Positions 1,410-37,805 of a stretch of 41,828 nt of DNA are shown here, one piece after another. The DNA comes from Acidobacteriota bacterium. GTDB taxonomy: Bacteria > Acidobacteriota > Aminicenantia > JAMOAD01. The first letter of the stretch is position 1. Each line of letters opens with the position of its first letter. The notes beneath the pieces were generated by a model that was not told the origin of the DNA, made no database searches, and saw only the letters and a list, made by a program, of their open reading frames with translations. A program made the translations under genes and the position numbers. Location of the stretch: assembly GCA_023621955.1 (NCBI GenBank), contig JAMOAD010000204.1, positions 1 through 41,828 of the forward strand. The letters are read 5' to 3'.

Positions 1410-2687
1410 TCAGGAGTGCAGGTCTTTCTGGTACTTCTCCCTAAGGTTGGGGTAGAGGGGAAAGCCTTTCGTCAGATCACGAACCTTTCCGGCCACCTTC
1501 TCCAGGAGCGCGTCATCCTTAATGTTGTGGACCGCTTCCGCGATGAGGACCGCGATCGTCTTCATCTCCTCTTCCTTCATGCCTCTGGTGGTAACGGCCG
1601 GCGTTCCCAGGCGGATCCCCGACGTAACCAGAGGCGGGTTGGGATCGAAGGGAATCGTGTTCTTGTTCACCGTGATGTGGGCCTTGTCCAGGGCGATCTC
1701 GACATCTTTCCCGGAGACCCCTTTGGAGGTGAGGTCCACAAGCATGAGATGGTTGTCCGTTCCTCCCGAGACGATCCGGAAGCCGTTGTCCTGAAGGGCT
1801 CCGGCGAGGACCTTGGCGTTGGCCACAACCTGCTTCTGATAAGCCTTGAACTCCTCGGTCATGGCCATCTTAAAGCAGAGCGCCTTGGCGGCGATCACGT
1901 GCATGAGGGGACCGCCTTGCATGCCAGGGAAGACGTTCTTGTTGAGATTCTTCTTGAAAGGCTCCCGGCAGAGGATGAAACCACCCCTGGGCCCTCGAAG
2001 GGTCTTATGGGTCGTGGAGGTGACGAAGTCTGCGAAGGGGACCGGTGAAGGGTGTACCCCGGCGGCAACGAGCCCTGCGATGTGGGCCATATCGACGGTC
2101 ATGACAGCCCCGACCTTGTCGGCGATCTGCCTTATCCGGCGGAAGTCTATCGTTCTGGGGTACGCGCTCGCTCCGGCGATGATCATCTTGGGGCGATGCT
2201 CCAAAGCCAGCCTCTCCATCTCGTCGTAATCGATCGTCTCCGTCTCCTTTGAGACGCCGTAAGGGACGATCTTGTAGAACAAGCCCGAGAAGTTGAGAGG
2301 ATGACCGTGGGAAAGATGTCCGCCATGGGAGAGGTTCATGCCGAGAACCGTATCGCCGGGCTGACAGACGGAAAAGTAAACGCCCATGTTGGCCTGGGTT
2401 CCGGAATGGGGCTGGACGTTGGCGTGGTCTGCACCGAAGAGGCTCTTCGCCCTTTCGATGGCCAGAGACTCCACAATGTCGACGTTGTGACAACCACCGT
2501 AGTATCTCTTTCCGGGATACCCCTCGGCGTATTTGTTCGTAAAGGCGGAGCCCATGGCTTCCATGATCGATTCGGGCACGAAGTTCTCGGAAGCGATAAG
2601 CTCGATGTTGTCGTTTTGACGGTTCAGCTCCTGCAGAAGAGCTTCTGTTACCTCTCTGTCCATGACGGATAGATTCTCATAAAACAT
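1410..2687 (-). CDS. glyA: Serine hydroxymethyltransferase
   Basis: This PLP enzyme interconverts serine plus tetrahydrofolate with glycine plus methylene-THF, the main entry of one-carbon units. At 425 aa it has the standard bacterial length. It shows the N-terminal 'IELIASENF' motif, the '[11 protein letters not shown]' loop, the metal/PLP-region '[12 protein letters not shown]', the PLP-lysine motif '[14 protein letters not shown]' with the Schiff-base Lys at 228, and the folate-region '[12 protein letters not shown]'. The ATG is preceded by a strong GGAGGAGGT ribosome binding site. It begins 31 nt after the rpiB stop, an arrangement common in bacteria, and is followed by the FapA-family gene. 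No terminator or separate promoter is apparent between rpiB and glyA, so it is probably read from the rpiB promoter. Confidence 0.98.
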
Positions 2688-2718
2688 AGATCAACCTCCT
2701 CCTATCCCAGGGTTTGCC

Positions 2719-3156
2719 TTAACTCTTTCTCTTGTCCAGCTTTTCGATTCGAACTCTGTGCCTTCCTTCGGCGAAGGGTGTGGTTAACCAGAGGGAGAGG
2801 TAGAGCTCCGCCATCTCCGTCGTCGTGACCCTCGCCCCTAAGACAAGGATGTTGGAATCGTTGTGTTCACGGCACTTTCGGGCTTGATACTCGCTTTGGA
2901 CAAGCGCCGCCCGAACGCCAGGGACCCTGTTTGCGGCAATGGACATACCGATGCCGGTGCCACAGACGAGTACACCCCGTTCCACCTCTCCCGAGGCAAC
3001 CGCTTCGGCAACAGCGGAGGCGTAATCGGTGTAGTCGCAGGAATCTCTCCCGTAGGTCCCCTTATCTTCTACCCCATAGCCTTGTTGGCGAAGGGTTTCG
3101 GCTAAGATCTCTTTGAGCGAAAAGCCGGCGTGATCGGCTCCCAGGGCTATTTTCAT
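2719..3156 (-). CDS. rpiB: Ribose-5-phosphate isomerase B
   Basis: It interconverts ribose 5-phosphate and ribulose 5-phosphate in the non-oxidative pentose phosphate pathway. The 145-aa length is typical of RpiB/LacAB proteins. Visible family marks are the N-terminal 'IALGADHAGFSLKE', the active-site loop 'VCGTGIGMSIAANR' with the catalytic Cys, and 'REHNDSNILVLGAR'. The ATG has almost no Shine-Dalgarno (only AAGAG directly before it). A consensus promoter puts the -10 box five bases upstream, so the mRNA may be leaderless (see the promoter entry). It is first in an rpiB-glyA-fapA-like unit. Confidence 0.96.
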   Translation of the reverse strand: MKIALGADHAGFSLKEILAETLRQQGYGVEDKGTYGRDSCDYTDYASAVAEAVASGEVERGVLVCGTGIGMSIAANRVPGVRAALVQSEYQARKCREHNDSNILVLGARVTTTEMAELYLSLWLTTPFAEGRHRVRIEKLDKRKS

Positions 3157-3161
3157 CTCTT

Positions 3162-3190
3162 AAGGTATAACACATAACCCCGATTGTCAA
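3162..3190 (-). promoter_or_regulatory. Sigma-70 promoter of rpiB, predicted leaderless
   Basis: On the minus strand TTGACA (3190-3185), a 17-bp spacer and TACCTT (3167-3162) are followed after five bases by the rpiB ATG at 3156. A start point 6-8 bases after the -10 box would coincide with, or fall just inside, the start codon. A TATACC hexamer overlaps the -10 with a shorter 15-bp spacer, which would give a leader of a few bases at most. Confidence 0.75.
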
Positions 3191-3227
3191 GGCGAGCCTT
3201 CGCCACCGGCCTTTTCGCCCGCTTTCT

Positions 3228-3662
3228 TCAGGCCCTGACAGGGCCGTTGGAACGGCTCTGTTGTCCTGATGCCGTCCCTTTATCCCGGCCTCTCTCTCCG
3301 CCTTCTTCTCGTCCCTCTTCCAAGGCCTTCTTGAGGCGGTAAACCATCTTGCCCAAATCGTCACCCTCCTGAAGGCACCGGTTCACCGCACTCTCGCACC
3401 CGTTTCCCCGACGTAAAGCCATTTCCAGGAGGACAAAGGCCTTAACAAGGCCATCCTGAACCCGCGTCAGCTTCTCCAGAAAGCCCGAAGTGTCCCTCCT
3501 CTGATACCCCTCGGCGAGGAGGCAGGGAATCGAGACCGTCACCTCCCGCAGGGCTTTCATCTCGGCCTGCTCCCCCCCGCGTCCCTCCGCGAGAGAAAGC
3601 GTCGCCGTCCAGAGGTCCATACTCTTCTGCCAAACTCTCAGATCCTTGAAGTTTTGTGCCAT
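3228..3662 (-). CDS. Four-helix-bundle protein (S23/IVS-protein family)
   Basis: The N-terminus 'FKDLRVWQKSMDLWTATLSLA' pattern, followed by 'SIPCLLAEGYQRRDTSGFL' and 'GLVKAFVLLEMAL', is the signature of the four-helix-bundle family. That family is found as the ORF in 23S rRNA intervening sequences and as the DGR accessory protein Avd. The helical core spans about residues 1-112; the last 30 residues are charged low-complexity sequence. The ATG has a good GGGAGGAG site and starts 11 nt after the stop of the preceding pilin-like gene, so it is the last gene of the pseudopilin operon. Neither rRNA nor a reverse transcriptase is near. Its biochemical function is unknown; members form pentamers and bind nucleic acid in the Avd case. 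Confidence 0.8.
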   Translation of the reverse strand: MAQNFKDLRVWQKSMDLWTATLSLAEGRGGEQAEMKALREVTVSIPCLLAEGYQRRDTSGFLEKLTRVQDGLVKAFVLLEMALRRGNGCESAVNRCLQEGDDLGKMVYRLKKALEEGREEGGERGRDKGTASGQQSRSNGPVRA

Positions 3663-3673
3663 TCTCTCCTCCC

Positions 3674-4096
3674 TTATTCAATTTCGCAGACCCGTACTCT
3701 TCCCACGGAGTTCATGGTGATCTTCCTCACCCTGTCAGGGCCGACCAGGGTTAAGGTAAAGAAGTTGGAAACCGTTCCCGTGGGGGTAAAGAGAGGGGTG
3801 TTGTTCGCTTTGAACCGAAAGAAGGGGATGCTCACCCGCCGGCAAGCGACCCATTTCCCTCCAAACCGTCTCTGCCGTTCCATCCCATCAGATACAAAGA
3901 AAACTCTCCTCTCTTCTCCCTTGACAATGGCCTCAAGCCTGGAAGCTTCGAGGAAAACCTTGATTTGAAAGAGCTCTCCCGACTCCCTCCACTGCCTCCA
4001 GCAGTTCCTCCCCCAACCCCAAACAGCGACGACCATCCAGAGCGAGAGCCCCAAGACGGCGACCGCTTCGATCAGGCTTACACCTCTCTCCCTCAT
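3674..4096 (-). CDS. Minor pilin-like protein (GspH/FimT type)
   Basis: A 140-aa protein beginning 'MRERGVSLIEAVAVLGLSLW'. This is a class III signal (short basic leader, Gly, hydrophobic helix with Glu at +5) recognised by prepilin peptidase PilD. The C-terminal part is beta-rich and ends 'TMNSVGRVRVCE', resembling the end of GspH/FimT domains. The chosen ATG has GGAGGG five bases upstream and overlaps the preceding gene's stop as ATGA. A longer reading from 4168 would add 24 residues with no signal-like character. It is fourth in the pseudopilin operon. It probably helps prime a type IV pilus or pseudopilus; whether for DNA uptake, motility or secretion cannot be told from the gene alone. 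Confidence 0.85.
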   Translation of the reverse strand: MRERGVSLIEAVAVLGLSLWMVVAVWGWGRNCWRQWRESGELFQIKVFLEASRLEAIVKGEERRVFFVSDGMERQRRFGGKWVACRRVSIPFFRFKANNTPLFTPTGTVSNFFTLTLVGPDRVRKITMNSVGRVRVCEIE

Positions 4097-5442
4097 GGTC
4101 CCTCCACATCCCTGAGAACCACCCGTTTGACTAGAGTCCACTCCCCCTCTCCTCGGGGAAGGGGCCATTTCCAGGGGCGGAAGAAGTTGTCAGGATCCTC
4201 ATAGACCGTCCACAGACCGGTCCCTTGGACCTCTCCCCCTCTGAGGGCGCCGAAAACCTTCACATCCTCTTCAGACCTAAGGATACCCCGGGTGAAGAGG
4301 TTCCCATGGAACTCTCCCGGTTCGCCCCGTAAGAACACTTCCTGGACGGGGAGCGAGGGCTTCTCCTCCAAGAGCCCTGGGCTCTGTACAAGGCAGAGTC
4401 GGCTCTTCTCCCTCTTAAAGCTGCCTCTGGCGATAGAGACCCCGTCGTAGCGAAGGGGAAGATCGATGGCTACGTCCCCTCCCAGATAGAGTTGAAGCTC
4501 AACGCCCTCCCCCAGAGCCGGAGAGTCCGGAGCCTCCACAAGCCTCTCGCCCATAGGCTCCCCCGAGCCAAAACTCTTCACATCCCCTTCCACAAGGAGG
4601 ACTCCCGAGAAGAGACCGTGGTAGGATCCTCCCGCTCCATCTTTGGCATACCTGGTCTCGCCTCCCTCGGGAGGGTAACTCAACAAGAGCGTATGCTCCT
4701 CTTCCTCCACAAAGATGTACTCCTTCTCGCCGTCCCAACCCAAAAGAAGGCGCTCGACATTCCCTTTGATGTAGAGAAAGAGGCCATCGTCACCCTCTCC
4801 CACGTAGATGCCGTCCACTATCGGCATCTCCCCAGGTTCCAGGCCGCACTTACGACGAAGGGCGGCCCGCAGGGACTCTCCCTCCCTTGGGTTCAGGAGT
4901 CTCCCCATGGCCGACTCCCTTGGGAAGAGAAACTCCGCCCCATACTCTTTCGCGGATCTATGGTAGGGAAAGAAGTAGTGCCCCATGACCCCCCCCAAGG
5001 GGGAGACCGGAAAGAAGAGGAAGGGGGGAAAACCGGAGAAGATTTCCAGATCCACCGAGGCGCCCATCCGTCCCCCCCGCCCCAAGAGAGCCTTCATGGT
5101 CAGATGGGCATCGATCTCCCTCCCCTCACCGTAGAGGCGGCTCTCTTCCTCCACCTTCACCTCCAGCCGGGCCGCCTCCTCCCGCAAAGAGTCCCCGTAG
5201 CTTCCCTCCAAGATTCCCGCGTCAGCGACGGAACGGATCATCCCCTCCTTATGGTTCACCTTCTCCAACTCGTGACCGATTCCCTTGGAAAGGAACCCCC
5301 TCAAGAGGCTCTCCCGGTAGTACCGCTCAACCATCCCCCGCTGAGCCCTCTGTGAGAGCTGAGCAGTTGAGATAAAGGCCGTCATGAAAACCCCCACCAG
5401 AGAGAGAACCACCAACATTGTCAGAAGAATGCTCCCTTTCAT
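4093..5442 (-). CDS. PilX-like membrane-anchored protein of the pseudopilin operon
   Basis: A 449-aa protein starting 'MKGSILLTMLVVLSLVGVF', which resembles the PilX N-terminal segment (basic residue, Gly-Ser, long hydrophobic helix). It lacks the usual FTLxE pilin pentapeptide. The rest has no motif I recognise and is predicted soluble, rich in beta-type segments and charged residues. The start ATG overlaps the previous stop as ATGA and sits behind GGAGGC. The open frame continues upstream to 6039, but that stretch is an out-of-frame shadow of the PilW-like gene. In minor-pilin operons the large PilX/PilY-linked protein caps the initiating complex; that role here is inferred from position and the N-terminus only. 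Confidence 0.72.
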   Translation of the reverse strand: MKGSILLTMLVVLSLVGVFMTAFISTAQLSQRAQRGMVERYYRESLLRGFLSKGIGHELEKVNHKEGMIRSVADAGILEGSYGDSLREEAARLEVKVEEESRLYGEGREIDAHLTMKALLGRGGRMGASVDLEIFSGFPPFLFFPVSPLGGVMGHYFFPYHRSAKEYGAEFLFPRESAMGRLLNPREGESLRAALRRKCGLEPGEMPIVDGIYVGEGDDGLFLYIKGNVERLLLGWDGEKEYIFVEEEEHTLLLSYPPEGGETRYAKDGAGGSYHGLFSGVLLVEGDVKSFGSGEPMGERLVEAPDSPALGEGVELQLYLGGDVAIDLPLRYDGVSIARGSFKREKSRLCLVQSPGLLEEKPSLPVQEVFLRGEPGEFHGNLFTRGILRSEEDVKVFGALRGGEVQGTGLWTVYEDPDNFFRPWKWPLPRGEGEWTLVKRVVLRDVEGP

Positions 5443-25188: not shown

Positions 25189-27174
25189 TCACCTCGCTTC
25201 AATCAGACTCTTCCCCCGCATCTCCGACGGAGGAGTCAGGGAGAAGAGCTTCAAGATCGTCGGCGCCAGGTCCCAGATGACCGGCGCCCTGTTTGTCTTG
25301 CATGGAAAGCTTGTCATCAAAAGGGCGGGGACGACACGGGAGTCCACACAGTGGTCTCCGGACCAGCGGTCCCTGTTCTCCTTGACCCCTTCGGGGGTAA
25401 GGGTTCCCAACGCCGAATCGTTGTCAATGCGGTAGGTGTCGTTGAAACCCACGACGATATCCGGCCCCCTCTTCATCCAGGGTCCCGAAAACTCCCTCTC
25501 CGGAACCGTCACCTTGGTCACCAGAGCGGCGCCGTTCCCGGGATCTTTCAGCGAGAGAAGCCACGTTTTCAACTCCTGAACCTTCCGAGAACGCTCCGAA
25601 GGGTCGACGGCACCCTCCCCCTCCCGCCCCTTCAGGTTCAGGTAGAGACCGTTGAGGCCGAGGGCGTAGGCTTGGGTCTCGCCCCAGAGGGCCCCCTCGT
25701 AGAGGGAGACCGGGAGATCGTACCCACTCTTCAGTTTCAGAAAACCGTCCCTTTGAAGGAGGGTGTTGATGTTCACCTTCCTGCGGAAGGTCGTGAAGCC
25801 GTGATCGGAGAGGACGATCAGATCGGCTCCCTTGGGAAGGCCCTTCATCGCCCGATCGAGAATCCTGTCGAACCGGAGGTAGAGATTCTCCACGGGGTCG
25901 CCGTACCGCTTTCGTTCTTCCGGTTTGTGAAGGGGGTGACCCTCGTCCCGGAGGGACCAGAACATGTGACTTCCCTGATCGACGGAGGAGAAGTAGAAGA
26001 AGAGCATCCCTCCCCGAGAAAGGGAAGAGAACCTCTCCAGCTCTCCGGCGAAGATCCTCTCGCTCTCGTGGAGAATGGTTTCGCTGTGGGAGAGAAAGTC
26101 CTGGACATCGAAGGTCCCATCGCTGAAAGCTTTCGTATCCGCGGGAAGGCCGAGGGTATGGAACCGCCCATAGCGATGGACCAGCTCCTTGCCGTAGTCC
26201 GAAGGCTCGCAGATAGGCTGGGCCGGATCGGCGGGGTCTAGAGAGAGGGGGGAGAGGTAGAGGCGGAAACGCTCCCCCGCCTCAAGGAGCTGAAAGCGGA
26301 CCATAGCCGGCAACTCCTTGAAAGGCATCAGAGGGAACTTAAGGGGGATCCAGGGGGAGACACCGCCTTCGGCCAAGAGAATCTCTCTTCCGGCAACGTC
26401 CAGCCGGGCGGTTCGGTGGCGTTTATCCCAGTAGACCTTGAGGGGAAGGGAGAGGGTCTCCTCCTCTTTGAGCGGATGGGGGGGACCGACGATCTCACTC
26501 TCCGCCGCCCCTTGGGGGTCGAAGATCAGGAAGAGAGCCTTGGCGGCCGAGAAAGAACGGGAAGCCTCGCCCTCGTCGGTGGTGAAGATCGTGTAAACCC
26601 CATAGGAATCGCCGGTGATGTCGGGGGTTCCCATCCCGGCGATGCTCCTCCCCCTCTCCATGGGCGAAGGGGGATAGTTGGAGGGAATCTTGAAGATCGT
26701 ACAGTCCTGTCCGGCCTCTTCCAGAAGATTCCAAAAGGGCTTGCCCTCACGGCACAGACGGATTCCTCCCTTCTCCATGGGAAGCTTCCAGGAGCCGAGC
26801 TTAAGGAACCGACGGGGCGCCTCGGCCTCGCTGATGGCGAAGTGGGGAAGGTAGTTCTCCGGATCTCGGTGAACAAAGTCGAAGATACCGTGGCCCGCCG
26901 GGTCGAGGCCGGTGATGAAGGAGGCCCAAGCCACGGGGCTCGCGGGAGGGTCGGTGGAGAACATACTCTGAAGCGTTCCGCGTTCCATGAGACGCCTGAA
27001 GGCGGGGAGACGGCCCTGCTCGACCAGGAGGCGGACGATTCTGGGGTCCATTCCATCGAAGCCCAGGACCAGCAGTTTCCTGGCGGAGTGGCTCCGGGAG
27101 ATCAACTGCGGCGAAGCCAGGAGGGTCGAAGCGGCCAGAACACCTCCGGTCTTGAGAAACTGTCGACGGTTCAC
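25189..27174 (-). CDS. Tat-exported alkaline-phosphatase-superfamily phosphodiesterase (second of pair)
   Basis: A 661-aa protein of the type I phosphodiesterase/nucleotide pyrophosphatase group. The N-terminus 'NRRQFLKTGGVLAASTLL' is a twin-arginine signal, so the protein is exported folded, probably with metals. Catalytic-core marks are 'LVLGFDGMDP' (metal Asp40), 'DPPASPVAWASFITG' (nucleophile region, Ser79 likely), 'GHGIFDF', 'IVLSDHGF' and 'RWSGDHC'. The GTG start at 27174 overlaps the previous stop as GTGA and lies behind GGAGGTGA; upstream in-frame sequence is shadow. It is a paralogue of the neighbouring gene throughout its length but lacks that gene's N-terminal membrane segments. 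The substrate is unknown: phospholipid head groups, nucleotides or glycan phosphates are all possible. Confidence 0.85.
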   Translation of the reverse strand: MNRRQFLKTGGVLAASTLLASPQLISRSHSARKLLVLGFDGMDPRIVRLLVEQGRLPAFRRLMERGTLQSMFSTDPPASPVAWASFITGLDPAGHGIFDFVHRDPENYLPHFAISEAEAPRRFLKLGSWKLPMEKGGIRLCREGKPFWNLLEEAGQDCTIFKIPSNYPPSPMERGRSIAGMGTPDITGDSYGVYTIFTTDEGEASRSFSAAKALFLIFDPQGAAESEIVGPPHPLKEEETLSLPLKVYWDKRHRTARLDVAGREILLAEGGVSPWIPLKFPLMPFKELPAMVRFQLLEAGERFRLYLSPLSLDPADPAQPICEPSDYGKELVHRYGRFHTLGLPADTKAFSDGTFDVQDFLSHSETILHESERIFAGELERFSSLSRGGMLFFYFSSVDQGSHMFWSLRDEGHPLHKPEERKRYGDPVENLYLRFDRILDRAMKGLPKGADLIVLSDHGFTTFRRKVNINTLLQRDGFLKLKSGYDLPVSLYEGALWGETQAYALGLNGLYLNLKGREGEGAVDPSERSRKVQELKTWLLSLKDPGNGAALVTKVTVPEREFSGPWMKRGPDIVVGFNDTYRIDNDSALGTLTPEGVKENRDRWSGDHCVDSRVVPALLMTSFPCKTNRAPVIWDLAPTILKLFSLTPPSEMRGKSLIEAR

Positions 27175-29297
27175 CCTTTCACCTCCAAATCCCGCCCCTC
27201 CAGGAAGGAGGGCTTGGGGACGCCGAAGAGGGAGAGAAGGGTCGGGGCGATGTCGATCAGCCCGGGGTCCGTGACGCCGACCTTCCGGTCGGAGAAGAAG
27301 ATTCCCGGAACCTTGGCGGCGGTGAAGGAGTGGTCGCCGCTCCACCTTCGGGTGTTATCCGAGAGAAGCCGGTCATCCACAAAACCGACGGCGGATTCCC
27401 AAGAGACCCTGAAACCGGGCCTATAGCCCAAGACGATATCCGGGGCGTTCTCCACATAGGGGCCTTCGTAGATCTCTTCCCGGCGGAAGACCGCGTCGAA
27501 GACCCTCTCGTCCCCATCCTTCACCTCGGTCAACTTCTCTTGAATCTCCCGTTGGAGAGCCTCCGCCTCCTGCCGGGTGAGGAAACCGTCCCTCTCCCGC
27601 CCTTTCCTGTTGAGGAAGAGGCCGCTCAACCCTGTCCCGTAGGCCTTGGTCTTGGACCAATCGACGTTGGCGAACCACTTCCCGCTCTCGGTGAAGCCCT
27701 CCTGAAGCACCAGGTACCCCTCCCTCTTGAGCCATGAGTTGAGGTGAAACCCCCTGCGAAAGAGGTTGAACCCGTGGTCGGAGACCACGAGAACCGCCTC
27801 ATCGCTCTTCTTGCGGCTCAGGACCTCCCCGAGGAAACAGTCCATTCTTCGGTAGACCTCGGGAATCGCGTCGGTCGAGGCGGGAGAGTCCGTGTCCCTG
27901 GGGGCCGGAGAGCTGGAGTCGGTGTAGCGCCAAAACATGTGCTGGATCCGATCGGTAGCCTCGAAGACCGCGGTGAGAACTCCCTCCCTCTGCTTTTCCC
28001 ATCCATCCCAGAAGGCCCTCTCCCTCTCGACCTGAGCGTCATAGACCTGGTCCAGGAAGAGCCGGTCGTCCAGAATCGCCTCGTTCAAGGCCCATGTGTC
28101 CTCCGCCATACCCAGAGTCGCGAAGGAACCGAACCTCTTGGCCAGATAGGGGGCGAAGGTCCCTGGGTAGGAGATCGGCATAGAGGGCTCCTCAGGGTCG
28201 ATCTGAAGGGGAGCCAGGTAGACCTCCACGTCCGGCTCTGTCCGACGGAGGACCCAGCGGCTCAGCCCCCAGACTTTCAAGGGCCCCGCGGAGAAGGCGA
28301 TCCGTACCCAAGGGGAGAAAGCGTTGACCCTGAGAACCACCCGTTCCCTCTGAACCTTCAGTTCAGCCCCCCCGTCCGGGAGAAGCCGGAGGGTGAAGGG
28401 GACCCTCATGAGAGGAGAGCCGTCGAGAAAGGGATGGGGAGGGCCTTCGATCTCCCCCTTCAGAATCTCCCCCTCCCTCTCCAGGAGGCAGACCCTGTTG
28501 TCCGCCAGAAGAGAGGCGTCGGAGAGAGAGGTCGAGAAGAGGGTCGAACTCCCCTGGGTTCCCCGGAGGTCCGGCGTTCCCAGCCCGGCCAACTGTATCC
28601 CTTTAAACTTCTCGGGGGGGAAGGTGATCGGAACCCGAAGCACCAGGGAAGGAATCCCCTCTTGCCCCAGGAGAGACCAGTAAGAACGGCTCTTGCGTAG
28701 AAGAGAGATCCTGGCCTTCGAGAGGGGAACCAGCCAACGCCCCCACCGATAACTCTTCCCAGGGTGGACAGAAGAGCAGGAGAGGAGGGGAAGGTAGTTT
28801 TTCGGATCCCGGGAGAGAAAATCGAAGATGTTGTGCTTCCCGGGGTTCACCCCGGTGGCGAAGGTCGACCAGGCGACCGGGGAGAGTGGAGGGTCGGTAC
28901 TTCTCAAGGGACAAAAAGAACCCTCCTTCCGGAGCCTATCGAAATTGGGGAGCTCCCCTCGGTCCATCATCCCTTCGGTCAGAGTGTAGTCCATTCCATC
29001 GAACCCCAAGAGAATCACCCGACGGAACCGGCTTTTGCTTCGCCTCCTGAGGCGCCTTACCCTCCGCACCAAAGCTCGAAAGGGCAGGGTTATCAGGTTG
29101 AAGAGGGCGAAGAAGAAGGCGAGGAAAACGAGGAAGAAGGAGCCGAGAAAGGCGAACCCCGCCCCCGGTCCTACGTAGGCGCCGAGAAACGAGGGAAAAA
29201 GAAGAGAAAAAATGCCCAGGGAAAGACGGAGGGCGGAGGGGAGGAGAGGGGACGCTCCCCCTAAAGGGCGACGTCCCCTCTTGGAAATCAGCGTCAA
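27171..29297 (-). CDS. Membrane-anchored alkaline-phosphatase-superfamily phosphodiesterase (first of pair)
   Basis: A 708-aa protein. The N-terminus has two hydrophobic segments (about 24-40 and 47-72) flanking 'AYVGPGAGFAFLGSF', then a very basic stretch 'RRVRRLRRRSKSRFRR' and the enzyme domain. Its motifs are 'ILLGFDGMDYTL' (Asp100), 'STDPPLSPVAWSTFATG' (nucleophile region, Ser139 likely), 'VVSDHGFNLFR' and 'RWSGDHSF'. If the basic stretch stays inside, the catalytic domain would sit on the cytoplasmic side unless the first segment is cleaved; the topology needs testing. The start is a TTG overlapping the EF-G stop as TTGA, behind AGGAGG, and no other start precedes the hydrophobic region. 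It is paralogous to the next gene. Confidence 0.83.
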   Translation of the reverse strand: MTLISKRGRRPLGGASPLLPSALRLSLGIFSLLFPSFLGAYVGPGAGFAFLGSFFLVFLAFFFALFNLITLPFRALVRRVRRLRRRSKSRFRRVILLGFDGMDYTLTEGMMDRGELPNFDRLRKEGSFCPLRSTDPPLSPVAWSTFATGVNPGKHNIFDFLSRDPKNYLPLLSCSSVHPGKSYRWGRWLVPLSKARISLLRKSRSYWSLLGQEGIPSLVLRVPITFPPEKFKGIQLAGLGTPDLRGTQGSSTLFSTSLSDASLLADNRVCLLEREGEILKGEIEGPPHPFLDGSPLMRVPFTLRLLPDGGAELKVQRERVVLRVNAFSPWVRIAFSAGPLKVWGLSRWVLRRTEPDVEVYLAPLQIDPEEPSMPISYPGTFAPYLAKRFGSFATLGMAEDTWALNEAILDDRLFLDQVYDAQVERERAFWDGWEKQREGVLTAVFEATDRIQHMFWRYTDSSSPAPRDTDSPASTDAIPEVYRRMDCFLGEVLSRKKSDEAVLVVSDHGFNLFRRGFHLNSWLKREGYLVLQEGFTESGKWFANVDWSKTKAYGTGLSGLFLNRKGRERDGFLTRQEAEALQREIQEKLTEVKDGDERVFDAVFRREEIYEGPYVENAPDIVLGYRPGFRVSWESAVGFVDDRLLSDNTRRWSGDHSFTAAKVPGIFFSDRKVGVTDPGLIDIAPTLLSLFGVPKPSFLEGRDLEVKG

Positions 29298-33099: not shown

Positions 33100-36000
33100 G
33101 TGGAAAACGACCGGAAAAAGATTTTGATCGTCGACACCGATGCCCGTTTCGTGAAGAATCTTACCCACTTTCTGAGTTCCTTCGATATCGTGGTGGAAAC
33201 GGCTGCCGACGGTCTTGACGCGCTAGACAGGCTGCGGGAGAATTTTCACGCGGTCATCTGCGAAATCGTTATTCCCAAGATCGACGGGCTGAAACTGACA
33301 ACGAGGATCCGAGCCCAGCTTCCCGATCTTCCCATCATCGTCGTATCGGGTATCTACAAGGGACAGGCCATTCGCCACAAGGCCGTCCACGACTGCAAGG
33401 CCTCCGCCTTCCTGGAGAAGCCCTTCCCTCTGGAAGAGGTCTGGAAGGCACTGGAGTTGGTCGCCGGGTTCAAGGCTCCCGAAGAGGGAGACATGACCCG
33501 GGTGGCTCCAGTCGCCGAACCCCCATCACCTCCGGTTGTGAGTGCCCCTCCCCCTCCGGTCACCGAGCCCCCCTCACCTCCGGTTGTAAGCGCCCCTCCC
33601 CCTGCGACACCTCGGGCAAAGAGGGAGGAGCTTCTCTCCGTGGACTCCCTCTTCGGCGACATCTTGGACGAGATCAACAAAGACCTTCCGGATTCTCTAC
33701 TGGACGAACAACCCGCCCCTTCGCACCACCCGACCCCAGTGGCATCCCCGGCCCCCTCTCCGGCCCCTCCCCGCCCTACGATCGCCCAGGCGGAACCCCC
33801 GGCTCCTCGCCCGGTCTCCCACACGGAGCCCATGCCCCCCAAGATCGCCGCGGAGCCCCCAAGACAGGCATCCCCCGTTCCTCCTCCGCCGGTCGCCCCG
33901 GCCCCGGAGAAGAAGAGAAGGAACATCGAATACGACGACATAGACGAGTTGATCCATAAGACCCTGGTCGACCTTCGGCGAAAACCGACCGCCGGAGAGA
34001 GCGTCCCTTCCAAGGCCGTTCACGAGGGTAAGGCCGCTCCGGTCTCCTCTCCAAAACCGGTTTCGCCCCAACCTCCTCCTGCTCCTGTCCAGGAACCACC
34101 CGTGGCTCCCCCCCCTCCTGCTCCTGCTCCCGCCCAGGAACTCCCCGTGACTCCCCCTCCTCAAAAGGTGGAGCCCCTCCCGTTTCACGCCCCCTCCTTT
34201 CAAGAGCCACCCAAGCCCCTTGAGAGAGAGGTGAAGGCGGAAGGGAGGTACGAACTCCTTGAGAAGATCGCCACCGGAGGCATGGCGGAGATCTACAAGG
34301 CCCGGCAAAGGGGTCCCGGAGGTTTTGAGAAGATCGTCACCATCAAGAAGATCCTCCCGCAGTTCGCCAACGACGAAGAGTTCATCGCCATGTTCACCGA
34401 TGAGGCCCGAATCGCCGCCTCCCTCTCCCACCCCAACATCGTCCAGATCTTCGATCTCGGGAAGATGGACAGAGAGTACATCATCGCCATGGAGTACGTC
34501 CCCGGGAAGGATCTGGGAGCCATCCTGAGGAAGCTTCGCAAAGAGAAGAGGAAGATGCCTCTGGATGTAGCCCTTCACATCGCCCTCAAGGTAAGCGAGG
34601 CGCTGGACTACGCCCATAAGAAGAACGACAACTCGGGAAACCCTTTGAACATTGTCCATAGGGATGTGACGCCTCAGAACATCCTTATCTCCTTCAACGG
34701 TGAGGTCAAGCTCACCGACTTCGGGATCTCCAAGGCGAAGAACAAGATTCACCAGACTCAGGCAGGGGGCCTGAAGGGCAAGTTCATCTACATGTCCCCC
34801 GAACAGGCCCGGGGAGAGGCCGAGGTTGACCACCGTTCGGACATCTTCGCCTACGGCATTCTCCTCTACGAGATCTTCACCCTCCGCAACCCCTTCCTGG
34901 AAACCACGGAGATCGGGATTCTCGAAAAGGTGAAGAAGGCGGAGTTTCTCCCTCCGGAGTCCCTCGACCCGAGTATCCCCGGAGAGGTAAGCGAGCTTAT
35001 CAAACACTGCCTCCAACTCTCCCCGGAGAAGCGGTTCGGTTCCGCCAAAGAAATCACCTCGGAACTGGAGAAGATCATGGTGGAGGTCGACGTCAACCTT
35101 CCTCTGGCCAAGGATCTTCTCTGCAAAACCATCGCCCAGCTCTTTCCCGAAGAGGTGGCCCACGAGGGATTTGCCGTCGACGACACCAAGGAGATCTTCC
35201 GCAAGCAGAAGGAGTTTGAAGACATCCTCAAGAAGAGAGGCGAGAAGACCGTTCCTCCCGTGGCGGCCCCATCACCGACGCCGGCTCCTCCCATGGAGCC
35301 CCCTCTGCCGAAGGCCCCTCCGCAGGAGCCGAAGCCGCCCAAGCCCCAAGCGGTGCAACCCCCTCCCCAGAAAGCCGTCAAAGAACCGGAACCGGTCAAG
35401 TTCGTCCCCAACAAGCACTCCCAAGCCCAACAAGATTTAGACGCCCTCTTGAAGGAGGAGGCCAAACGTCCTCCTATCGCCCTGATCGTCGGCATCGCCG
35501 TTTTGGTCTTGGCGGTTGTCCTCTTCTTCGTCTTGAAGAGAGGCTCCGCCCCCTCCACGGTTCCCCAGGTTCAAACCCCCGGTCAGACAACATCGACTCA
35601 GCCTCCAGCCCTTCAGACAGGCCTTCAAGACGCGGCGCTCCCTGCCACGACACCGGCACAGACCGAGCCCAAGGGGACAGACCAGAAGGAGGAGCCTAAG
35701 GCTGCGGCTCAGGTCCAGCCTCCCACTCCGGAGAAGAAGCAGGAGCCTAAGGCTACTGCCCCCGCTCAGATCGGGAACGACAAGCCCAAAGAGGAGAGCA
35801 AGCCCGTGGTCGAGCCGCCCAAGGCGAGCGAACCGACCCCCCAGCAACAGACTCCAGCCGCCTCTCCCGTTCAGAGCACGCCTCAAGAGACCGTTCAACC
35901 CCGTCCTCAGCCCCAGCAGCCCTCGGGGCCCGCGGAAGGTTCCGTTGTCGCCGCGACGGCCCTGGATTTCCCTGTGAAGGCGACCTCTAAGAGTGTCCCC

Positions 36001-36228
36001 TCCATAACCTCCGAGGAGAGACGCCGCGGCCCCTACCGGATCATGATGCAGGTTCTCGTGGGAATCGACGGTCGGGCGGAAAAGTTCATGATACTGAAAG
36101 TCTCCCCCGCCCTCTCTTCCCTTCAAAGCTCCATGGAGAGAGCCATCTCGGGATGGCGCTTCACACCTCCCGTCAGCCAAGGCGTGAAGGTCAAAGTCTG
36201 GACAACGGTTTCCATGATGATTCAATAA
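33100..36228 (+). CDS. Receiver domain - Ser/Thr protein kinase - TM - TonB C-terminal domain fusion protein
   Basis: A 1042-aa protein with a GTG start. Residues 5-122 form a receiver (REC) domain: 'ILIVDTDARF', 'VICEIVIPKIDG' with Glu55 at the phospho-Asp position, Ser83, and Lys107 in 'FLEKPF'. A Pro-rich linker (about 125-375) has repeats such as 'EPPSPPVVSAPPP'. The kinase domain (about 380-665) shows a Gly-loop 'TGGMAEIYKA', Lys416, 'HRDVTPQNIL' (His520, Asp522), 'DFGISK' (Asp540) and 'MSPEQARGE'; all catalytic residues are present. After a second Pro-rich stretch comes a single TM (about 793-815), a Pro/Gln/Lys-rich spacer that would cross the periplasm, and a TonB-like C-terminal domain (about 960-1042, 'VLVGIDGRAEKFMILKVSP' and 'ISGWRFTPPV'). 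The kinase is cytoplasmic and the tail periplasmic. Confidence 0.9.
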   Translation: MENDRKKILIVDTDARFVKNLTHFLSSFDIVVETAADGLDALDRLRENFHAVICEIVIPKIDGLKLTTRIRAQLPDLPIIVVSGIYKGQAIRHKAVHDCKASAFLEKPFPLEEVWKALELVAGFKAPEEGDMTRVAPVAEPPSPPVVSAPPPPVTEPPSPPVVSAPPPATPRAKREELLSVDSLFGDILDEINKDLPDSLLDEQPAPSHHPTPVASPAPSPAPPRPTIAQAEPPAPRPVSHTEPMPPKIAAEPPRQASPVPPPPVAPAPEKKRRNIEYDDIDELIHKTLVDLRRKPTAGESVPSKAVHEGKAAPVSSPKPVSPQPPPAPVQEPPVAPPPPAPAPAQELPVTPPPQKVEPLPFHAPSFQEPPKPLEREVKAEGRYELLEKIATGGMAEIYKARQRGPGGFEKIVTIKKILPQFANDEEFIAMFTDEARIAASLSHPNIVQIFDLGKMDREYIIAMEYVPGKDLGAILRKLRKEKRKMPLDVALHIALKVSEALDYAHKKNDNSGNPLNIVHRDVTPQNILISFNGEVKLTDFGISKAKNKIHQTQAGGLKGKFIYMSPEQARGEAEVDHRSDIFAYGILLYEIFTLRNPFLETTEIGILEKVKKAEFLPPESLDPSIPGEVSELIKHCLQLSPEKRFGSAKEITSELEKIMVEVDVNLPLAKDLLCKTIAQLFPEEVAHEGFAVDDTKEIFRKQKEFEDILKKRGEKTVPPVAAPSPTPAPPMEPPLPKAPPQEPKPPKPQAVQPPPQKAVKEPEPVKFVPNKHSQAQQDLDALLKEEAKRPPIALIVGIAVLVLAVVLFFVLKRGSAPSTVPQVQTPGQTTSTQPPALQTGLQDAALPATTPAQTEPKGTDQKEEPKAAAQVQPPTPEKKQEPKATAPAQIGNDKPKEESKPVVEPPKASEPTPQQQTPAASPVQSTPQETVQPRPQPQQPSGPAEGSVVAATALDFPVKATSKSVPSITSEERRRGPYRIMMQVLVGIDGRAEKFMILKVSPALSSLQSSMERAISGWRFTPPVSQGVKVKVWTTVSMMIQ
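33517..33603 (+). repeat. Tandem 48-bp-spaced repeat in the Pro-rich linker
   Basis: Two near-identical 39-bp copies (33517-33555 and 33565-33603) each encode 'EPPSPPVVSAPPP'. Similar but looser Pro-rich duplications occur near 34075-34155 and 35690-35765. They encode unstructured linkers and could expand or contract by slippage. Confidence 0.75.
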
Positions 36229-36269: not shown

Positions 36270-36506
36270 ATGGTGGACATCACCAAAACCAACGAAGATT
36301 TTTATCGCAACACCCTCGAGCAGACCCGGTCCCAGATCATTTCCATCGACCAACAGGTCAAAGATGAAGTGAAAGCCTTCAAGGAGAGAATGGCCTCTCT
36401 CCACAACCAGAGGAAGGTCATCAAACAGATCTACGACGGCGCCGCGACCCTCCTGGGTGAACCCGATGAGTTCGCCGAGAGCGGGGAAGAGGTGGAAGAG
36501 ATCTAA
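36270..36506 (+). CDS. Small helical (coiled-coil) protein, unknown function
   Basis: A 78-aa highly charged protein, mostly one long helix ('FYRNTLEQTRSQIISIDQQV' continuing to about residue 58) with an acidic tail ending 'EEVEEI'. There is no signal peptide or membrane span. I do not recognise a family. The ATG at 36270 is chosen because GGAG lies eight bases upstream; the ATG at 36264 is only two bases from it. It follows the fusion-kinase gene by about 40 bases and precedes folC by nine, so it is probably cotranscribed with them. Confidence 0.62.
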   Translation: MVDITKTNEDFYRNTLEQTRSQIISIDQQVKDEVKAFKERMASLHNQRKVIKQIYDGAATLLGEPDEFAESGEEVEEI

Positions 36507-36515
36507 GAGTCCTCT

Positions 36516-37805
36516 TTGAACCTAGAAGAACGTAACGGTTACCTGGATTCCCTTCAACGCCTGGGAATCAAGTTGGAACTCGATCGGGTCTCCCGTTTCC
36601 TCGATGGGCTCGGGAGGCCCGCGGAGAGATTCCGTGCCCTCCTCGTGACGGGCACCAACGGGAAGGGCTCCGTTTCCACCTACCTTTCCTCCGCCCTCTC
36701 CCACATGGGTTTTAGGACAGGCCTCTACACATCCCCCCACCTTGTCCGCGTCGAAGAACGGATCAAGATCGACGGAGCCCAGATTCCCGAAGAGACCCTC
36801 ACCTCCCTGGTCGGTTTCCTCAAGGAGAAGGTGGACGAAGCGATTTCCAAGGGAGTCCTCCCCCAGCCCCTGACCTTCTTCGAACTCTTAACCGTCGCGG
36901 CCTTCCTCTGGTTCAAGGAGGAGAAGGTTGATTGGGCGGTACTGGAGATCGGACTGGGAGGGCGTCTCGACGCCACAAACGTCGTAAACCCCGAAGCTTC
37001 TGTCATCACCACGGTGGCTCTGGACCACACCCAGATTCTCGGTAAAACCGTGGCCCAGATCGCCCGGGAGAAGGCGGGAATCGTAAAGCCCGGCAAACCC
37101 GTCATCATCGGAAAGCTTCCCCCTTCGGCCCGGAGGGTCATCGAAGAGACCTGCCAGGAACGGAACGCCCCCCTCTTCGGAGCCTTCGACCCGCCACGCC
37201 GGCTTCTCCGGAATGGAAGAGCCGGATGGCTCTACCGGAGCGAAGGAGGGGACTACCTCTACCGTCCCTCCCTCTTGGGAGTCCATCAGGCCTACAACGC
37301 GGCCATAGCCCTGAAGACACTGGAACTCCTCTCCCTGGACCCACTGAACCCCGAGAGGGTCTGCGAAAAAGCCCTCCTCGGCCTCCAGGAGGCAAAGATC
37401 GAAGGGCGCCTGGAGTGGGCGCGGGAGAACATGCTTCTTGACGGAGCGCACAACCCTGCGGGAATGGCCACCCTGGTCGCCTACCTGAAGTCGAAGGGCC
37501 TCAGGAACCTCTCCTGCCTCTTCGGCGTCTCCAACGACAAGAGGATGATCACCATGGCCAGGCTGCTCTTTCCCTTCTGCAGACGGGTCGTTCTGACCCG
37601 CTCGGACGTCGCCAAGGCCCAGGATCCCTTGGAGCTCTCCAACATGCTCCATCAAGCCGGCCTGAGGATTCCCATGGAGGTTGAACTGGACCCCCAAAAG
37701 GCTCTCGCCCGCCTCAGGAAGGGAGCCCGGCCCCAAGAGACCCTCCTGGTTACGGGTTCCCTCTACCTGGTGGGGAACATCAAGGCGCTCCTGGAAAGGG
37801 AATGA
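36516..37805 (+). CDS. folC: Folylpolyglutamate synthase / dihydrofolate synthase
   Basis: A 429-aa Mur-ligase-like enzyme that adds glutamate to dihydropteroate and/or to folates. It shows the P-loop 'TGTNGKGSVS' (45-54), 'GLYTSPHLVRVEERI', 'EIGLGGRLDATNVV', 'TTVALDHTQILG', 'IAREKAGIVKPGKPV', 'GRLEW' and 'LLDGAHNPAG', covering both the ATPase and C-terminal ligase domains. The start is a TTG nine bases after the previous stop. No better start lies upstream of the family's usual N-terminus, and the Shine-Dalgarno is weak. The stop overlaps the sirtuin ATG. Together with glyA it is one of two folate genes in the window, though they are far apart. Confidence 0.94.
   Translation: MNLEERNGYLDSLQRLGIKLELDRVSRFLDGLGRPAERFRALLVTGTNGKGSVSTYLSSALSHMGFRTGLYTSPHLVRVEERIKIDGAQIPEETLTSLVGFLKEKVDEAISKGVLPQPLTFFELLTVAAFLWFKEEKVDWAVLEIGLGGRLDATNVVNPEASVITTVALDHTQILGKTVAQIAREKAGIVKPGKPVIIGKLPPSARRVIEETCQERNAPLFGAFDPPRRLLRNGRAGWLYRSEGGDYLYRPSLLGVHQAYNAAIALKTLELLSLDPLNPERVCEKALLGLQEAKIEGRLEWARENMLLDGAHNPAGMATLVAYLKSKGLRNLSCLFGVSNDKRMITMARLLFPFCRRVVLTRSDVAKAQDPLELSNMLHQAGLRIPMEVELDPQKALARLRKGARPQETLLVTGSLYLVGNIKALLERE

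Follow-up and report, generated by a model that had tools for sequence, protein, structure and literature searches.

The Myxococcus xanthus gliding protein GltG (PglI) combines a cytosolic signalling domain (FHA), one transmembrane (TM) span, a Pro-rich stretch and a TonB_C tail (PF03544 at 570-637; PMC3169522), and a comparable plan is found in the protein encoded by an open reading frame (ORF) at 33100-36228 in a 41,828-nucleotide contig of an Acidobacteriota bacterium (JAMOAD010000204.1, the whole of which is referred to here as the window). GltG differs in having FHA in place of a pseudo-receiver and a Ser/Thr kinase, and it works within a multi-gene machine that includes the AglRQS motor. 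We know of no coiled-coil partner of GltG of about 80 residues such as the one encoded beside the window ORF. The window protein is not GltG-like in the strict sense, as a Pfam scan finds no FHA in it and its conserved neighbours are a small gene, folC and, in some loci, accD.

The individual parts of the protein have counterparts in other systems. FrzS and similar domains likewise have a receiver fold without the phospho-accepting Asp or the second metal-binding acid; these are termed aspartate-less receivers or pseudo-receivers (ALRs or PsRs; PMC4395418, PMC12632262). Acidobacteria belong to the phyla in which they are most abundant (PMC4395418), about 80% of PsRs have a non-acidic residue at the second metal-binding position (DD2; PMC12632262), and a 2025 review calls the mechanism of the bacterial ones a mystery (PMC12632262). 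The window family differs from these in its fusion to a transmembrane Ser/Thr kinase and a TonB_C domain, in being phylum-wide, and in coordinated swaps at positions 55 and 107. The fungal kinase Rim15p also unites a Ser/Thr kinase with a pseudo-receiver, in which Asp is replaced by Glu in Ascomycota (PMC12632262), but it is eukaryotic, its receiver is C-terminal, it has neither a membrane span nor a TonB domain, and the likeness is convergent. PknB-type kinases (M. tuberculosis PknB and the PASTA kinases) share the kinase fold, the single TM span and an extracytoplasmic sensor tail, whereas the window protein has a TonB C-terminal domain in place of PASTA and an additional N-terminal pseudo-receiver. 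TonB itself (E. coli, Pseudomonas) has the same fold as the last ~93 residues and a similar Pro-rich periplasmic linker, but the window protein has a large cytoplasmic kinase half, no His in its TM span and no ExbBD beside it.

A sequence-only reading of the window, made before any database search, had described a receiver, kinase, TM span and TonB_C domain in one chain, with Glu in place of the phospho-Asp, and this architecture is borne out by Pfam, by AlphaFold and by orthologues with the same domain order. The ORF begins at a GTG codon and encodes, in a single chain, a receiver, a linker, a kinase, a membrane span, a second linker and a TonB-type C-terminal domain; the domain makeup, Glu55 and the open frame are all confirmed above chance level. 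Domains were called from Pfam profiles, AlphaFold models were built with our own alignments, and fold matches were sought by Foldseek against the PDB; the host assembly comprises 394 contigs and is 85% complete. Orthologues were searched for in 40 relatives and 297 genomes of the phylum. Proteins with the order receiver, linker, kinase, TM span and TonB_C, mostly of 850-1200 residues, occur in many families of several Acidobacteriota groups, and in a scan of all genomes, among the best 80 loci, a receiver and a kinase share an ORF only in Aminicenantes, in Thermoanaerobaculia/Acidobacteria and in one CSSED10-310 record; the matches in Myxococcota and Nitrospirota are kinases that lack a receiver. 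A quick tree of the kinases, with several long branches, clusters the sequences by genome family, as vertical descent predicts. Judged from these comparisons, the family has been inherited vertically across Acidobacteriota, a phylum of soil and sediment, and is not the oddity of one genome. The window is placed in the class Aminicenantia because two relatives of its genome within the class (G012 and G024) show about 90% DNA identity over 13 kb to Candidatus Aminicenantes UBA2199. Searches of the openly accessible literature for TonB-tailed kinases, for Acidobacteria kinases with TonB and receivers, and for Aminicenantes kinases yielded no description of it, and the family is apparently undescribed so far. 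One genome of the window's own family (G001, 99% complete), unlike its family mates, has no scaffold match at 1e-60 and no match to the small protein described below at 1e-6, reflecting either loss or an assembly gap.

Members of the family nearly always share a neighbour. In the class, a coiled-coil gene of 70-110 codons begins 13-36 nt downstream of the scaffold gene in every one of the 20 loci, that of the window among them, for which this flank is available, and such a gene follows 60 of the 69 kinase loci that carry a receiver or TonB_C. The nine loci without it comprise three pseudokinase paralogues (L210-L212), three members of lineage f19, and three at or near contig ends. Across the phylum it is present in 108 of 297 genomes, nearly always as a single copy, and it adjoins the scaffold gene in most of the genomes whose coordinates were compared by eye. 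In the window a start at 36270, giving 78 residues, is likelier than the longer form (Table 1) from the spacing of an AAAGGAG sequence. The small protein matches no Pfam or NCBIfam family; the best match of its profile in the PDB (E 0.005) was dismissed as coiled-coil noise, leaving it with no solved homologue. Copies without an adjoining scaffold gene were also seen (L217:5319-5612, L229:5205-5504, L245, L246 and L226:4607-4930), and those in L217 and L229 come after an Era-like GTPase gene.

The other components of the locus can be lost. In G048 and in three families of this class (f3, f7 and f8), a receiver-TM-TonB_C protein without a kinase lies ahead of the small gene (L214, L216, L218, L224, L227, L228, L232-L235 and L237), and its position 55 is always Glu. 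In family f34 the protein ahead of the small gene has TonB_C but lacks both receiver and kinase (L219-L223, L225 and L239-L242), and in f30 it is a kinase anchored to the membrane at its C-terminus that lacks TonB_C (L200 and L203-L205). What all forms have in common is the small coiled-coil protein together with a membrane protein. Because the kinase-less lineages retain the rest, the scaffold and the small protein appear to be the core of the system and the kinase, which on this comparative evidence is a dispensable part of the locus, its output module.

Table 1. Features of the scaffold locus in the window (res, residues; aa, amino acids; pLDDT, predicted local distance difference test)
Feature	Position	Strand	Basis
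Pseudo-receiver / Ser-Thr kinase / TM / TonB_C protein, 1042 aa	33100..36228	+	Open ORF, Pfam domains, orthologues
Degenerate receiver domain, res 6-122	33115..33465	+	Response_reg at res 8-118, E 3.5e-18; (beta-alpha)5 fold; Thr13, Glu55, Ser83, Lys107
Glu55 codon GAA at the phospho-Asp column	33262..33264	+	Aligned with 78 homologous receivers
Linker motif L-S-x-D-x-L-F-G-D-I-L, res 179-190, short helix	33634..33669	+	Class conservation; predicted helix 181-194
Linker helix D-D-I-D-E-L-I-H-K-T-L-V-D-L with Thr288, res 278-292	33931..33975	+	Conservation; predicted helix 278-292
Hanks-type kinase domain, K416, E435, D522 and D540 intact	34249..35055	+	Pkinase at res 384-652, E 5e-42; invariant columns; fold matches PknB
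Single transmembrane span, res 793-812, no His	35476..35535	+	Hydropathy
Pro/Gln-rich presumed periplasmic linker, res 813-949	35536..35946	+	Composition
TonB C-terminal domain, res 950-1042	35947..36225	+	Pfam in 18/18 class members; AlphaFold (AF2) pLDDT 92.2; Foldseek
Small coiled-coil partner gene, 80 aa	36264..36506	+	Orthologues downstream in 20/20 class loci, 60/69 loci
folC-like gene, probably outside the mechanism	36516..37805	+	Syntenic in 20 class loci

The receiver has kept its fold and lost its chemistry. Residues 7-122 are modelled as a complete (beta-alpha)5 receiver with pLDDT of 95-98 in most blocks, and the closest solved relatives by sequence are CheY, PhoP, Spo0A and others; Foldseek of the receiver-kinase model returned kinases only, and these relatives thus come from sequence search alone. 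Asp12 is present at DD1, and Ser83 and Lys107 are retained, but DD2 is the non-acidic Thr13, so that both the phospho-acceptor Asp and the pair of acidic metal ligands of a canonical phospho-accepting receiver are wanting. A sequencing error at Glu55 is ruled out because both same-family relatives that have a receiver (L038 and L039) also carry Glu. In 79 homologous receivers, counted as sequences and not as independent events, position 55 is Ser in 28, Glu in 17, Arg in 11, Ala in 10, Thr in five, Asp in only four, Tyr in three and Asn in one; the homologues thus do not routinely carry Asp there, and at least 10 changes in this column are needed on the kinase tree. DD2 is Tyr in 64, Phe in nine, Thr in three and acidic in none, and not one of the 79 has all five canonical receiver residues together. 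With neither phospho-acceptor nor second metal ligand, the domain is by sequence a pseudo-receiver, and Glu55 probably has an ordinary explanation in pseudo-receiver drift. Positions 55 and 107 change together by lineage (Arg/Asp in 11, Ser/Phe in six, Tyr/Trp in three, Asp/Glu in three), which reads as repacking of the pocket, not tuning of phosphorylation. The 11 Arg55 and Asp107 pairs, apparently resembling an inverted salt bridge, are in L156, L157, L161, L163-L165, L168, L170-L172 and L175.

The kinase, where present, looks intact. The Gly loop, the VAIK Lys, the alpha-C Glu, the HRD and DFG Asp residues and SPE are all there, as in Hanks-type PknB-like kinases; Lys416, Asp522 and Asp540 are invariant across 57 homologues, and the top PDB matches of the predicted fold are M. 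tuberculosis PknB. The kinase is therefore apparently active, as had been supposed. It is not a Stk1 family PASTA kinase (NF033483), scoring 273.5 bits against a cut-off of 450 with no PASTA domain in Pfam.

Two short elements stand out in the linker ahead of the kinase. In the first, F185-G186-D187 are at least 90% conserved in the class, and a helix is predicted at 181-194 within an otherwise disordered linker. A role for this motif as a kinase-specific dock is weakened by the kinase-less L224, which retains LTSEDLFGDIL, and by the kinase-bearing L054, which lacks the motif. The second, the helix at 278-292, is the best-kept cytoplasmic element outside the folded domains, with T288 and L289 at least 90% conserved in 57 homologues. 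The Thr288 column was searched for with a matrix in which that column was masked, with seeds from kinase-bearing sequences and matches accepted above the 95th percentile of shuffles, and it holds Thr in 62 of 65 proteins with a kinase and in two of 10 without (Fisher p 4e-7, uncorrected for shared descent). Because retention of Thr tracks the presence of the kinase, the pattern suggests that the attached kinase acts on Thr288, so that the protein would phosphorylate itself. In lineage f19 (L176, L180 and L181), searches of the genomes found no small gene, and both linker motifs are also missing; the joint loss is one event, consistent with binding of the small protein to a linker motif.

Beyond the kinase, the only stretch that convincingly spans the membrane is residues 793-812, and the segment from 854 to 945 contains 21 Pro and 15 Gln among 92 residues. 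The cytoplasmic and periplasmic orientation is inferred, and the predicted topology supports the earlier suggestion of a tail that faces the periplasm and is long enough to reach outward. Whether the C-terminus really has the TonB_C fold had been posed as a test of the earlier reading. Hmmscan of this protein gives TonB_C (PF03544) at 981-1037 with E 9e-4 and 20.1 bits, just under the 24.6-bit cut-off, and a genome search gives 24.7 bits, just over it. The fold is confirmed by the high-confidence model, whose top Foldseek matches are all TonB C-terminal domains (best E 1.4e-5; Pseudomonas, E. coli and Salmonella are the closest solved), and by the class alignment, in which all 18 members, the window protein included, match Response_reg, Pkinase and TonB_C, the last with a best E of 9e-19.

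With moderate confidence, we read these observations, which are of sequences and models, as pointing to a modular scaffold for signalling across the envelope in Acidobacteriota, usually equipped with a kinase. The TonB domain would grip an outer-membrane or envelope protein, and the pseudo-receiver would act as a docking or ligand-binding module independent of phosphorylation; its earlier assignment as a protein-interaction module is supported by elimination. The small coiled-coil protein would be a dedicated subunit, probably binding the 278-292 helix or another linker element. A change in the small-protein complex or in envelope contact may then activate the tethered kinase, probably through dimerisation as in PknB, and the activated kinase would phosphorylate its own linker at Thr288 and then further substrates. 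Several points weigh against this scheme. Confidence in the modelled linker helices is moderate at best (pLDDT about 73 and 56). The kinase-less forms derive from few losses, so that few independent events lie behind the Thr288 contrast, and in these proteins the whole 278-292 helix drifts as well. A second TL motif is present in several sequences, and Thr288 may be one site among several. Finally, the f30 lineage has no TonB domain, and envelope contact is thus not universal. A more specific version is offered only tentatively: that the complex is characteristic of the phylum and arose early in it, with a TonB-tailed scaffold, a pseudo-receiver, a plug-in kinase and an obligate coiled-coil subunit of ~75-80 residues, and that phosphorylation of Thr288 by the kinase controls binding of the subunit and so relays the state of the envelope to the cytoplasm without Asp phosphorylation.

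Among other explanations, the pseudo-receiver could be an autoinhibitory ligand sensor that frees the kinase on binding a small molecule such as a cyclic dinucleotide. The analogy is with Caulobacter ShkA, whose pseudo-receiver is reported to gate the kinase through ligand binding (PMC7010744), and the beta4-alpha4 region 'S-x-[IV]-Y-K-G' is unusually conserved (Tyr86 in 76 of 79) although the phosphorylation residues are not. However, ShkA is a histidine kinase, no ligand-binding motif has been shown, and the receiver is retained where there is no kinase to inhibit; we think this explanation unlikely. It seems improbable, too, that the protein is mainly a structural envelope tether with an incidental kinase: several lineages do retain receiver-TM-TonB_C and the small gene without a kinase, but the catalytic residues are invariant wherever the kinase is present, and conservation of Thr288 tracks it.

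The proposal that Glu55 is a special phosphomimic, fixing the receiver in an active-like state that constitutively turns on the kinase or docks a partner, like D-to-E in NtrC, is quite improbable. Where receivers lack the Asp, Glu is what most often replaces it (26%), and it can at times mimic phosphorylation (PMC4395418). The Glu-bearing lineages (17 of 79) retain the switch Thr/Ser, mostly the K-3 aromatic, and Lys or Arg at 107 (nearly always Lys), and their receivers may therefore adopt an active-like conformation. But orthologues have Ser, Ala, Arg, Thr, Tyr or Asn at this position, and such variability excludes a phosphomimic role across the whole family; the second metal acid is missing in all; D-to-E alone is often insufficient (PMC4395418); and the kinase-less proteins also have Glu, which is therefore not solely a kinase switch. 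That the protein is a TonB-like energy transducer whose motor is ExbB/ExbD and whose transport the kinase and receiver regulate is very improbable in spite of the TonB fold and the TonB-dependent receptor plugs and ExbB homologues of the genome, as no TM His is present in any homologue examined, a separate TonB_C gene adjoins an ExbB homologue on contig C204, and no ExbB/D-like gene stood out at the locus in a conserved-neighbour search, so that gene context gives canonical ExbBD coupling no support.

The novelty lies not in the Glu receiver itself but in a pseudo-receiver family that spans the phylum, has a conserved partner gene and can dispense with its kinase. The sequence-only observation is confirmed and its interpretation partly supported, and the system around the Glu is more interesting than had been supposed. 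In many orthologues the receiver's phosphorylation chemistry has decayed in various ways while the fold, the linker motifs and the partner gene stayed. The family offers natural versions with and without the kinase, together with a candidate phosphosite and a candidate partner protein, and suggests a conserved route from envelope to cytoplasm in a large, poorly studied phylum.

Several related proteins were noted in passing. L063:120-1874 encodes a 593-residue protein with a Glu receiver and a kinase-like domain; it has HGN for HRD and neither TM nor TonB_C, and its genome also encodes the intact family member at L054. L210:2364-4427, L211:2050-4074 and L212:2069-4174 are separate paralogues with a kinase-like domain, a TM span and TonB_C, and their genomes carry the full scaffold as well; L210, the one of the three read throughout, shows HGA where HRD is expected, lacks DFG and is likely a pseudokinase. 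In the window's own genome, contig C310 (L058:772-2532) encodes a zinc-ribbon/kinase/TPR protein, and the next ORF (2591-5377) has a weak TonB_C-like end, the pair being a two-gene version of a kinase plus a TonB-like tail. Elsewhere in the window, on the minus strand, 25189-27345 and 27171-29297 encode adjacent, similar large proteins resembling enzymes of the alkaline-phosphatase superfamily, apparently a tandem duplication.

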